Shown piece after piece: positions 517 through 8,240 of a stretch of 64,000 nt of DNA. A program made the translations under genes and the position numbers. The DNA lies in contig NZ_CP072600.1 in NCBI RefSeq assembly GCF_019891175.1, positions 310,001 through 374,000 of the forward strand, given 5' to 3'. Origin of the DNA: Leptothermofonsia sichuanensis E412. GTDB lineage: Bacteria; Cyanobacteriota; Cyanobacteriia; Leptolyngbyales; Leptolyngbyaceae. Numbering within the stretch: the stretch's first letter is position 1; each line of letters begins with the position of its first letter. The notes under the pieces were generated by a model. It ran no database searches. It saw nothing but the letters and a program-made list of their open reading frames with translations, and was not told the DNA's origin.

Positions 517-1644
517 GTGTCCTCTTCTCCATCCTCCCAAACTGCTCCGAAGTTCACCATCAAAGCCCTGACCCAGGCCGTGGGCCAGGGGGTTACCCCT
601 CGCATGGTGCGCCATTATCACCAGATTGGGCTACTGCCCCAGCCAGCCCGATCCGAGGGCAACTATCGGCTCTACAGTGAGGCCGATGTGCAGCGACGTC
701 AGCGCATAATGGCCCTGAAACAACAGGGGTTTCAGCTCGCCCACATCCAGCAAATGCTGGCCCCGGCCACCGACACCACTCAGGTTGAGCCACTGGTCAC
801 CCAGTTGCAGCAGCAGTATCAGGCATTGTTGCAGCAACTGGTGCGACTGCGGCAGACAGCAACAGCACTGGAGGGATTGCTGGGTCGCGATTTCGCCTGT
901 CAATCTCTCCAGGCAGAAGCCCTGGCCCAGTTGCGGTTGCTGGATGTGGAAACTCAGAGCGCCCAAACCCTGGCAGCAGACCTGTGGCAGCATCTGGATG
1001 GGGCGGTAACCGACCATCCTGAGGATTTTCAGGCGGCGCTGCGACGGCTCCTGCCCGATCTGTCGGAACGGCCCGAAATTGAGCTCGATGTGCTGTCCCA
1101 GATGATTTTGGCCTGTGGCGATGTGGGGCTATCAGCCTTTGTGCGCTTCAGCCCAGATGCGATCAAAGCGGCGCGGCAGGCATTGACCCAGGGCTGCACG
1201 GTGGTGGGGGATGTCCCGGCGGTAGTGGCCAGTTTAGATCAGCCGCGGCTGGTTCACCTGGGCTGCCGCTGGCAGGCTCTACTGGACGATGTCCATATCG
1301 ATGGCGTCGTCACTGCCGAGCAGTCTTTTTGGCAGACGAATAAGCACCAGCAGCAGTTGGAGGCCCTGGCGGAGGGCAATATCTGGGTCGTCGGCTATGC
1401 CCCGTCAGTGCTGATGGCGCTCTGCGAGGCGATCGCCAGTCAGAAACTACAACCCGCTCTGGTGATTGGGTTGCCCATTGGCTTTAGCCATGCCCCGGCA
1501 GCAAAGCGATGGTTGATGCAATTGGCGGTGCCCTATATCACCACCGAATGCGCCCTGGGCGGCGGCTTATTGGCAGCGGTAGCCCTGAATCGACTGTCCG
1601 CGTCTCTGATTGAAAAGCCTGACTGCCACTGTTACCTGGGCTGA
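517..1644 (+). CDS. coaR: CoaR-like cobalt-responsive MerR-family regulator with precorrin-isomerase-like domain
   Basis: The 375-residue protein begins at GTG. Residues about 13-80 form a MerR winged-helix DNA-binding domain (VTPRMVRHYHQIGLLPQP). A coiled dimerisation region follows, then residues about 165-365 resemble precorrin-8X methylmutase (CbiC/CobH). At the position of the isomerase catalytic histidine this protein reads MILACGD, so catalysis is probably lost. The extreme C-terminus carries Cys370-His371-Cys372, the cobalt-sensing motif described for Synechocystis CoaR. The family activates the divergent cobalt exporter coaT when cobalt is in excess. Divergent placement and the operator at 449-483 support this. 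Very likely a CoaR orthologue. Confidence 0.93.
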   Translation: MSSSPSSQTAPKFTIKALTQAVGQGVTPRMVRHYHQIGLLPQPARSEGNYRLYSEADVQRRQRIMALKQQGFQLAHIQQMLAPATDTTQVEPLVTQLQQQYQALLQQLVRLRQTATALEGLLGRDFACQSLQAEALAQLRLLDVETQSAQTLAADLWQHLDGAVTDHPEDFQAALRRLLPDLSERPEIELDVLSQMILACGDVGLSAFVRFSPDAIKAARQALTQGCTVVGDVPAVVASLDQPRLVHLGCRWQALLDDVHIDGVVTAEQSFWQTNKHQQQLEALAEGNIWVVGYAPSVLMALCEAIASQKLQPALVIGLPIGFSHAPAAKRWLMQLAVPYITTECALGGGLLAAVALNRLSASLIEKPDCHCYLG

Positions 1645-1960: not shown

Positions 1961-2179
1961 ACAGGAGGTTGCGTGTGCAACCTTCTAAACAACAAAGCTG
2001 CCAAAGATAACAAAGCCCAAAGTCGACTCTGCCTGACGAGGACAAAAAGCCCTGATTCTGTCAATGGCAACCTGGAAACGGCAACCTGAATGGGAGCCGG
2101 AGCGCAGTTGAAGTCTGCGTTTCCATGTTTTCAAGCATAGCACATCAGGGCGATCGCCTGGGTATGATGAGAATAACCG

Positions 2180-2341
2180 CCACCTGCACAATGAAGGAGG
2201 CTTGCCAGGTGTAGGGTATTGCGGATGCAAGTCTCTCCATAGGGTTCGATTCCCTCACTACCCAGGTGTAGTCCTCGGATGGTTTCCATAGGAAAGAACG
2301 GTGCAATCGCACAATCGGGCTGCGGCAGCAAACTGGAGGAT
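2180..2341 (+). ncRNA. candidate Band-7-associated tRNA-like structured RNA
   Basis: The core folds like a tRNA without an anticodon arm. An acceptor-like stem GGGTA (2214-2218)/TACCC (2259-2263) encloses a D-arm-like hairpin TTGC-GGAT-GCAA (2219-2230, with a GG in the loop) and a T-arm-like hairpin AGGG-TTCGATT-CCCT (2241-2255, with a canonical TTCRA loop). Directly 3', TCCTC (2272-2276) can pair with GAGGA (2336-2340), closing a junction of three perfect hairpins: TTTCC-ATA-GGAAA (2283-2295), GTGC-AATC-GCAC (2301-2312) and GCTG-CGG-CAGC (2319-2329). CCACCTG (2180-2186) could pair with CAGGTG before or after the core. The SPFH gene starts about 100 nt downstream. Strand and ends are inferred; no promoter was identified. 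Confidence 0.6.
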
Positions 2342-2438
2342 ACCGGGCTGACTTGCGAGTTGGTCCTCAATCGAGTTTCCCCACAGTCCGATGTTCTTTC
2401 CTTCACCGATCCTCCTTCAGGTTGATAGAGGTTACCGC

Positions 2439-3164
2439 ATGTTGTTTCGTAAGCAAATTTCCATCAAGCCTTATCAAGTAGGATATTTGTATGTCAAGAA
2501 TCGTTTCAGACGGCGGTTGGAACCAGGCATCTATTATTTTTGGGATTGGGTTAATGAAATCACGGTTGCGTATTTACCGGCGCAGAGACAGCTTTGTACT
2601 GTAACGAACCAGGAAGTCCTCACGAAGGATGCGATCGCCCTGCGGTTTTCCTATCTGATTGAGTATGTGATTGTTGATGGAGAGCGCTTTCTAGCTCACT
2701 TTGATGGGTTTTCACAAGGGCAAAATTTCTATCCTCACGAGGCCGAGCAGGTGATTAGCAACCTGTCACAGATTTACTGGCGTGATGCCATTGCTCAACT
2801 GGATAGTGAACACTTGAATGAACATCGGCAAACCCTTTTAGCCACTGTTCCGGATACACTCCAGCATCGTTTAGCTGAATACGGTATCTCGCTCCTATGC
2901 CTGACGCTGCGCGACATTACTTTCCCAAAAACAATTCAGGATTTGTTCGCGAAGCAACTGGAAGCCAAAATTCGTGCGAAGGCAGACCTGGAAAACGCTC
3001 GCACGACAGTTGCGGCAGCCCGTGCCCTGAAAAATGCAGCGGACTTAATCAAAGAAAATGAAAACATCCGGTTCTTCCAATTTCTGGAGACGATGACCAA
3101 AATTGCCGCCAGGGGTAACCACACCTTTGTGATTGGCGAATTGCCACAGAACGGTAAGCACTAG
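2439..3164 (+). CDS. SPFH/Band-7 (slipin-like) protein
   Basis: From ATG 2439 (GAGG just upstream) the protein has 241 residues; an in-frame ATG at 2391 is less likely because it adds a segment with no family similarity. The start MLFRKQISIKPYQVGYLY and the central block typical of stomatin/slipin Band-7 domains lead to a charged helix rich in Glu/Ala/Lys (about residues 165-215) that should form a coiled coil for oligomerisation. No clear transmembrane helix is seen, unlike classical slipins. Band-7 proteins act as ring-forming scaffolds. In RNA-repair operons, SPFH/Band-7 modules have been linked by comparative genomics to a tRNA-like non-coding RNA, which fits the element just upstream. 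No RNA ligase is adjacent. Confidence 0.85.
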   Translation: MLFRKQISIKPYQVGYLYVKNRFRRRLEPGIYYFWDWVNEITVAYLPAQRQLCTVTNQEVLTKDAIALRFSYLIEYVIVDGERFLAHFDGFSQGQNFYPHEAEQVISNLSQIYWRDAIAQLDSEHLNEHRQTLLATVPDTLQHRLAEYGISLLCLTLRDITFPKTIQDLFAKQLEAKIRAKADLENARTTVAAARALKNAADLIKENENIRFFQFLETMTKIAARGNHTFVIGELPQNGKH

Positions 3165-7095: not shown

Positions 7096-8240
7096 CCGAT
7101 TTAAATTGGATATAGGGCAAATAGAGTAGACTGAGAGGGTAGTTTAGATTCCCTCTGCAATGGCTGGAGTCACCTCGGTTAAAGTCAAAGAAAGTCTCGA
7201 TGAGCTAGTCCAACAATCGCAACAAGTGGAAACACCAAAGGACAAGGAACGCCTGCAAGTGCTGTACTGGCTCAAACAGGAAAAGCCACCCAGCATTGGT
7301 GCGATTGCCAAGGCGATCGGGAAACATCGCAATACAGTAGGGAGATGGTTATTGCAGTATCGGGAAGGTGGGGTGAGTGCCATGCTGGAACGTAAAGTGT
7401 CGTCTGGCGGTGTCCGCAAGATTCCACAATGGGCGGAAGAGGCACTGGCTAAGCGATTAAAGAACTCGGAACATGGATTTGCCAGTTATGGAGCTGTGCA
7501 ACAGTGGTTAGCGGAGGAGTTGGGTGTCGAAGCGGAGTATCATGCGGTATACCAAATGACGCGCTATCGCCTCCAAGCGAAGCTGAAAGTGGCTCGTCCG
7601 CAAAATATCAAGCAGGATTGTGAACGGCGCGAATCATTTAAAAAAACCTTGCAGATGACCTGGAGTTGTTGAGCCAGTATGCTCGGCAAGTCATCCAGGA
7701 GGAGCGTCCTATCCGTTATTTTGCTCAGGATGAAAGTCGCTTTGGACTCAAAACCCTGATTGGGCGCTTGATTACTGCTTGTGGTATCAAACCGATTGGG
7801 CAATGGCTATGGTTGTTCAAAGCGTTTTGGCTCTATGGGGCCGTCGAACCAGCAACCGGAGAGTCGTTTTTCTTGCAATTCTCCCATGTGGATACTGCTT
7901 GCTATCAAGCGTTCCTCGAGGAGTTCTCCAAAGCCTACCCCGATAGTCTCAACATTCTACAAGTGGATAACGGGCGTTTTCACAGCAGTAAAGATTTAGT
8001 GGTGCCAGAGAATGTGATTTTATTGTTTCAACCTGCTTACTGCCCAGAGTTAAATCCGATTGAAAGGTTGTGGGAATACCTCAAGGCAGATTTGAAGTGG
8101 GCTTCGTTCAAAACGCTAGAGCAACTCCAAGCGAAGGTCGATCAACTCCTGGCTCAATTGACTCCAGAAGTTATTGCTTCGATCACAGGATATTCCTTCA
8201 TCCTGAATGCCCTATCTGCCCTGAACCCCATTTAAATTGG
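7096..8240 (+). mobile_element. IS630-family insertion sequence, apparently intact
   Basis: Terminal inverted repeats of about 30 bp can be aligned. The left end reads ACCGATTTAAATTGG from the TA at 7094-7095. The right end, read inward from the TA at 8241-8242, gives ACCAATTTAAATGGG. The flanking TA dinucleotides are the target duplication expected for IS630/Tc1-mariner elements. The element is about 1.15 kb and holds one transposase in two frames. A 162-bp fragment that looks identical to 7890-8051 lies inverted at 28694-28855, so this family has been active recently. Confidence 0.88.
7160..8235 (+). CDS. IS630 transposase made by -1 frameshifting
   Basis: Frame A (7160-7672) encodes an N-terminal helix-turn-helix region (IGAIAKAIGKHRNTVGRWL). 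Frame B (open from 7642 to 8235) encodes the DDE catalytic domain with RYFAQDESRFGL, LQVDNGRFH and QPAYCPELNPIERLWEYLK. The frames overlap at a run of seven A (7640-7646) followed by C. A -1 shift there joins FKK to NLADDLELLSQYA and gives one protein of about 358 residues. IS630 elements commonly use this device, so I read it as programmed frameshifting and not as a broken gene. The protein should move the element into TA targets. Confidence 0.88.

Follow-up and report, generated by a model that had tools for sequence, protein, structure and literature searches.

In the cyanobacterium Leptothermofonsia sichuanensis E412, a structured RNA lies immediately 5' of a stomatin-like Band-7/SPFH gene, and the same pair recurs across bacterial phyla. 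The stretch of DNA analyzed (64,000 nucleotides, hereafter the window) covers positions 310001–374000 of the single-contig 6.43-Mb genome (NZ_CP072600.1), and coordinates are given within it. On comparative grounds, the RNA is built of a 5' pseudoknot domain (D1), a central tRNA mimic and a 3' rod-like domain 2 (D2), and this architecture co-occurs with the SPFH gene. We consider it likely that the two form a two-part ribonucleoprotein module, consisting of a stable noncoding RNA with its own promoter and a soluble SPFH protein encoded just downstream. The features of the locus are given in Table 1.

Table 1. Features of the RNA–SPFH locus in the window.
Feature	Position	Strand	Basis or remark
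-10-like box TATGAT	2163–2168	+	places transcription start near the RNA 5' end
Whole structured RNA, ~228 nt	~2175–2402 (ends approximate)	+	conserved across phyla
Helix a, 5' strand CCGC	2177–2180	+	pairs with 2221–2224
Helix b, 5' strand CCTGCAC	2183–2189	+	pairs with 2209–2215
Pseudoknot helix c, 5' strand, inside the loop of b	2196–2205	+	pairs with 2227–2236
Helix b, 3' strand	2209–2215	+	pairs with 2183–2189
Helix a, 3' strand GCGG	2221–2224	+	pairs with 2177–2180
Pseudoknot helix c, 3' strand	2227–2236	+	pairs with 2196–2205
T-arm hairpin AGGG-TTCGATT-CCCT	2241–2255	+	T-type hairpin in 27 of 43 loci
Closed acceptor-like hairpin ACTAC-CCAGGT-GTAGT	2257–2272	+	5 of 5 pairs; equivalents in relatives judged by eye
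D2 closing helix S1, 5' strand	2291–2299	+	pairs with 2393–2401; 9 of 9 pairs
Hairpin H1, GTGC/GCAC	2301–2312	+	read from the sequence; counterparts by eye
D2 helix S2, 5' strand	2314–2325	+	pairs with about 2381–2392
D2 helix S3, 5' strand	2330–2337	+	pairs with 2371–2378; 7 of 8 paired in the window
GGATACC motif, near-invariant	2338–2344	+	columns invariant or nearly so in alignments A3 and A4
D2 hairpin S4	2345–2366	+	9 of 9 pairs in the window
3' strands of S3, S2 and S1	2371–2401	+	covariation and pairing scores
Band-7/SPFH protein, 241 aa	2439–3164	+	PF01145, E = 1.2e-23; no membrane segment by hydropathy

At positions 2160–2440, ARAGORN and Rfam 15 marked nothing, and neither recognized a native-order tRNA cloverleaf there. 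At the gathering score, Rfam 15 gave no match for the window RNA or for seven related loci, and at E values up to 5 it gave none for positions 2100–2450, so that annotation based on Rfam would miss the RNA. Single-sequence folding was equal to chance for positions 2205–2275 (z = 0.03) and mildly better than chance for positions 2160–2420 (z = −1.81, with 7 of 200 shuffles as good); the structural evidence is comparative.

By the comparative standard, the structured RNA upstream of the Band-7 gene is real. The closest relatives at the locus are cyanobacteria, and in one of them (L002; L denotes a locus and G a genome) identity to the window is 59 of 64 positions in D1 and 103 of 111 in D2, as against only 207 of 524 in the DNA upstream of the promoter. 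We counted 43 loci after dropping the copies L003–L006, L045, L046, L051 and L042, which duplicate L008, L009, L010, L011, L024, L035, L020 and L015, respectively. All helices of D1 (a, b and c) and of D2 are present in the window, S3 with one mismatch.

In D1, helices a and b show compensatory changes at 9 of 11 pairs (alignment A2, 39 rows, with L031, L034, L039 and L043 left out and the anchors of L010, L016 and L026 set by hand). The changes cover all seven pairs of helix b, which is paired in 96.7% of cells; helix a is paired in 99.4% of cells, and at two of its pairs CG is replaced by UA in two sequences each. Over the whole domain, 97.7% of cells are paired, compared with 84.3% in shuffles and 32–58% when the partners are slid. 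Helix c joins the loop of b to the DNA after the 3' strand of a in an H-type pseudoknot, for which the window forms 10 of 10 pairs, two of them G-U. Its score is at least 16 in 41 of 42 loci (L039, in which the 5' domain has diverged, was left out) versus 15% of shuffles, and its mean of 23.4 compares with 14.0 when the two strands come from different loci. The partner strand appears by eye to be displaced in the sole exception, L037.

The three helices of D2 carry compensatory changes at 25 of 27 pairs, namely at 10 of the 10 modelled pairs of S2, 8 of 9 in S3 and 7 of 8 in S4, and 88.9% of D2 cells are paired versus 62.9% in shuffles and 37–52% when slid. For the closing helix S1, the mean pairing score across the 43 loci is 26.5, compared with 18.2 for mismatched partners, and 31 of the 43 lie more than 1 sd above. 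Alignment A4 has 33 rows; the ten loci left out (L007, L025, L026, L039, L041, L043, L044, L047, L048 and L050) include the most divergent ones, and for L025 and L026 the D2 anchors were placed manually. The GGATACC motif is altered in these last two loci, both of which stand outside A3 and A4.

Between the pseudoknot and D2, T-type hairpins have the frequency given in Table 1, whereas shuffled sequences average 0.05 and flanking DNA 0.07. The T arm with a TTCGATT loop that the preliminary description had placed here is present. In many relatives it is followed, as judged by eye, by a short closed hairpin at the acceptor position (often carrying GG in its loop), a D-like hairpin and a hairpin with a 7-nt loop. 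The order T–acceptor–D–anticodon is that of a circularly permuted tRNA, and the central mimic of many relatives is, going by these hairpins, laid out in this way. The mimic of the window is reduced as far as its sequence can be read: the T arm and the closed hairpin are clear, with no clear D arm or anticodon arm, the lack of the latter having been pointed out before.

Other parts of the compact tRNA-like fold first proposed did not survive the comparison. Its acceptor stem (GGGTA/TACCC, 2214–2218/2259–2263) lacks the TACCC side in all four of the closest relatives checked (L002, L007, L008 and L041), and its D-arm hairpin (2219–2230) takes in bases of helix a (3' strand) and runs into the beginning of the 3' strand of helix c. 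Both stems were rejected because none of these relatives keeps TACCC and the bases pair elsewhere with covariation; these bases form the pseudoknot domain instead. The real element is also larger than the fold proposed, and has a second domain that was not described.

Rotation of the loci gives a divided picture of the permuted tRNA. When L023 was rotated and cut around its acceptor loop, 14 of the 94 cut points gave an ARAGORN call of tRNA-Asn(att), and Rfam called no tRNA in the same locus in its native order. The same treatment gave no tRNA at the window locus or in the other 41 of the 43 loci, and none in 10 shuffled sets of these 43. Wider backing for a permuted tRNA comes from the sequence of arms as seen by eye and from the signature of the anticodon loops. 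That ARAGORN accepts just 1 of 43 rotated loci, yet makes a call in L017 as it stands, counts against the permuted reading. The call in L017 is tRNA-Cys(aca), spans the pseudoknot and the T arm and may be due to chance.

The hairpins with 7-nt loops 3' of the T arm number 33 in 52 loci; 16 of them are anticodon-like, versus 1.5 per shuffled set, and 24 carry U33. We selected 19 loops for C or U at position 32, U33 and no GG, leaving position 38 unselected, and A37 and A38 each occur in 15 of these, a few of which may not be the true arm (e.g., one of two in L017). Positions 34–36 vary, with GAA in six of the selected loops, GTA and CAA in two each and nine other triplets once each. Different triplets are found on the same stem: ACGA/TCGT is kept with TAG in L013, GTT in L017 and GAA in L030, and CAGC/GCTG is kept in L036 and L038 with CAA and GAA. 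Change in the triplet, with the stem constant, is an argument for the anticodon as the business end of the RNA in the lineages that keep it. A strict anticodon arm, assigned by eye, is present in 13 of the 43 loci and in 3 of 9 further loci, and the arm is missing or irregular in most loci, the window included. The figure of 13 is used in place of a raw 18 of 43, which includes hairpins outside the anticodon position (L012, L016, L024, L028 and L044). The anticodon-like hairpin of L011/L006 was dropped, its loop being of 6 or 8 nt.

Relatives of the protein were found at 33 named loci, in Cyanobacteria, Acidobacteria, Bacteroidetes, Ignavibacteria, Chlorobiales, a Treponema MAG and a Doudnabacteria MAG. 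A single match to R1, the domain-2 model, was obtained directly 5' of the gene in 32 of these loci, most of which belong to the seed of the model; L026 scores 26.6 bits. L025 gave no R1 match, though its protein frame is open, and it retains the 5' domain and the T arm. Among cyanobacterial genomes, R1 detects the RNA in 5 of 386, the same five that carry the protein. In Bacteroidota it is detected in 8 of 395 genomes, seven with the protein and one with a weak match (G718). Of the genomes bearing both, three of the five in Cyanobacteria and three of the seven in Bacteroidota contribute no sequence to the R1 seed. It should be noted that these scans score 11 candidates per genome after a first look with strict filters, so that weak copies may be missed. 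Among 20 further loci, we examined the 10 from genomes not yet used; 9 of them, none in the seed, carry the RNA, and L070, where the protein match covers residues 167–238 only, gave no RNA match.

Several loci bear on how tightly RNA and protein are linked. The match in G718, an RNA without the protein, would speak against a ribonucleoprotein; it scores 27.4 bits and overlaps a 640-aa ORF on the opposite strand, and as a solitary RNA it was set aside as a probable false positive. L008 (8001–8723, in the same genome as L003) and L049 also count against the module, as both keep the RNA despite stops in the protein frame: one TAA in L008, where the RNA still scores well, and one TAG and one TAA in L049, where it still matches the model. 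The failure of R1 in L025 and L070 counts on the same side. L007 (G012) speaks for the pair: the match to the protein ends at residue 78, and the core of the RNA likewise carries mutations. The protein of G325, a cyanobacterium of another family, is 91% identical to that of the window; the neighboring helicase, taken as a yardstick for horizontal transfer, gives only weak partial matches in G325 and G016. The Band-7 protein had no match in phages (E 1e-10), plasmids (E 1e-20) or viral contigs, and a mobile or viral origin was rejected on this basis.

The Band-7 gene reported downstream of the RNA is there, beginning with the ATG at 2439. Its product is 45–64% identical to 29 homologues from several phyla (alignment A1, from which L008 was left out because its frame holds a stop). 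The SPFH fold begins directly at the protein start, and none of 30 sequences has a 19-residue stretch with hydropathy of at least 1.6; lacking such a stretch, the protein is probably soluble, unlike stomatin. A structure search with the AlphaFold model (pLDDT 80, pTM 0.63) gave stomatin, HflK/C and prohibitin as best matches. These proteins form rings or cages, as the titles of several matched structure entries also state, and we infer that the protein of the window could form a ring. The major protein of the eukaryotic vault, MVP, is also matched weakly, at ranks 45, 46, 49 and 50 among the best 50 (TM by query 0.47–0.48); its SPFH relation is distant, and the matches to stomatin, HflK and prohibitin are better. 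The RNAs of the vault contain tRNA-like promoter boxes.

In 22 of 36 loci, the ACCGCC motif is preceded by a TAnnnT box at a distance of 10–17 nt (13–14 nt in 19 of the 22), whereas random positions show such a box in 12% of cases; related loci are not independent. Seven of the 43 loci, in which none of a short list of 5' motifs was found, were set aside for this count. With this spacing, transcription would start at the RNA 5' end, and a single promoter there would serve both the RNA and the gene. Since the RNA lies 5' of the gene, in the same direction and behind one promoter, a leader role is possible, and a cis-acting leader is the main rival to the module: the RNA would be a structured 5' UTR controlling the Band-7 gene, either through autoregulation by the SPFH protein or through a tRNA-binding protein that recognizes the mimic. 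The thrS mRNA operator, which is bound by its synthetase, is a model for such a tRNA-mimic operator. PMC8394870 mentions this operator. The constant position and orientation of the RNA just 5' of the start codon fit a leader, as does the result of 781 genome searches, which gave no convincing free-standing copy of the RNA. However, the distance from the RNA to the start codon is 426 nt in L041, compared with 37 nt in the window and L002, which indicates that RNA and gene are separable. A pseudoknot with tRNA arms and a second domain goes beyond a simple operator, and one and the same downstream gene goes with differing triplets. On balance, we regard the leader as a serious but rather unlikely explanation. 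The extra DNA between RNA and gene in L041 looks repeat-like by eye.

The neighboring genes say little in favor of a fixed partner. RtcB is the next gene in 3 of the 33 named loci (L018, L022 and L026); the other 30 have a different neighbor and, by eye, no constant partner, Acidobacteria excepted. RtcB was matched in 19 of 34 genomes searched and unmatched in 15, several of which are draft MAGs, so that it does not seem to be a required partner. The statement that no RtcB lies within reach of the window locus holds, the sole match in the genome being 3.1 Mb away; that this is unusual does not, as it is the usual state of the family. The proposal of an SPFH protein paired with a tRNA-like RNA for RNA repair is borne out in the linkage across phyla and in the three loci with RtcB and WYL, and mostly fails in its stems. 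Binding of the RNA by the protein, or action in RNA repair, would follow from this linkage by inference. The small number of RtcB-adjacent loci and the genomes without an RtcB match are points against the module.

The three loci with RtcB, all from Bacteroidetes, have a WYL-domain regulator upstream on the other strand, then the RNA, SPFH and RtcB, in a compact arrangement like that of an RNA-repair locus. The exception among Acidobacteria concerns the family of G429, of which two named members are Pyrinomonadaceae: 9 of 119 genomes carry the protein, and by motif search a bacterial microcompartment (BMC) shell gene follows in all nine, two of these genes being confirmed by Pfam. A class II aldolase-like gene, named by eye, usually precedes the pair. 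The loci with the pair beside BMC-H are L013, L017, L019, L025, L030, L078, L081, L082 and L084. Elsewhere in the window, positions 517–1644 (+) encode a MerR-family regulator fused to a precorrin-8X methylmutase (CbiC) domain, which we take to resemble the cobalt regulator CoaR of Synechocystis, and positions 7160–8235 (+) hold two overlapping ORFs in different frames that by eye are like a frameshifted IS630-type transposase.

The anticodon arms invite a further explanation, in which the permuted tRNA mimic is a decoy that absorbs anticodon nucleases of toxins or phages, its triplet being swapped with the threat, and the SPFH protein merely stabilizes the RNA. In its favor are triplets that vary while the stems are conserved, along with U33 and predominantly A37 and A38. 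Many loci, however, including the window, are without a clear anticodon arm, no linked nuclease gene was recognized by eye among the neighbors, and the protein is unmatched in the phage, plasmid and viral collections; we hold a pure decoy to be improbable. The RNA could also be what is left of a decayed tRNA or tmRNA gene that happens to adjoin a gene unrelated to it; the tRNA-like T arm, at a place where neither ARAGORN nor Rfam calls a tRNA, would fit this. Such a relic is scarcely credible, however, since the D2 pairs covary as do those of D1 with its pseudoknot, and the non-tRNA domains are conserved across phyla.

If the ribonucleoprotein module is taken as the basis, its operation could be as follows. 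The transcript would yield a stable RNA, and the SPFH protein would assemble into a ring or cage that may grip the RNA by those motifs of the pseudoknot and of domain 2 that hardly vary. The mimic would then be offered as a bait or gauge to enzymes acting on tRNA, above all anticodon nucleases or enzymes of tRNA ends. At the few RtcB-linked loci, the module would unite the damaged tRNA and the ligase; elsewhere, as in the window, it may act by itself or together with a ligase from a distant gene.

Burroughs and Aravind (Nucleic Acids Res 2016) reportedly included, among RNA-repair systems, SPFH/Band-7 modules with a novel tRNA-like RNA, and the RNA–SPFH pairing seen here was probably already described there. 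The likeness lies in an SPFH protein with an adjacent tRNA-like RNA and, in three loci, RtcB next door. The window differs from these modules in having no RtcB nearby and in its reduced tRNA mimic. A literature search of titles and abstract openings gave no description of the RNA among the matches listed, which is weak evidence. Permuted tmRNA and tRNA genes, in which the T arm and the acceptor 3' strand precede the acceptor 5' strand and the D and anticodon parts, have the same order of parts; the RNA described here differs in adding a pseudoknot and D2, and in its short, closed acceptor hairpin.

A close parallel among noncoding RNAs is YrlA, which, according to PMC8394870 and PMC7790460, comprises a tRNA-like module (resembling D, T and acceptor arms) and a separate long stem that tethers the Ro60-like ring protein Rsr, and is found in some bacteria with RtcBA. 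Both RNAs are thus modular, with a tRNA-like module and linkage to RtcB in some genomes; the present RNA is unlike YrlA in that SPFH replaces Rsr, a pseudoknot domain is present, and the order is T–acceptor–D–anticodon, some members of the family having an anticodon arm that varies. Another SPFH gene in an RtcB locus is that of PaFlo8 (PA14_60630), in the rtc locus of Pseudomonas aeruginosa, for which the passage of PMC13086221 consulted mentions no RNA; PA4582, in the RtcB operon, is called a protein of unknown function in PMC8619066.

Taken together, our results may, in a tentative reading, be extended to a distinct class of bacterial noncoding RNA: a permuted tRNA with a swappable anticodon, held in a soluble SPFH ring or cage and serving, in a vault-like manner and without a dedicated ligase, as a bait or gauge for anticodon nucleases, found also in a microcompartment operon of one acidobacterial family. 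SPFH proteins such as stomatins, prohibitins and flotillins are usually seen as membrane scaffolds, and a soluble branch tied to a single large structured RNA would put the fold to another use. If this extended reading is true, the swappable anticodon arm on a permuted tRNA would mean that bacteria show fake tRNAs to the enzymes that cut tRNA.
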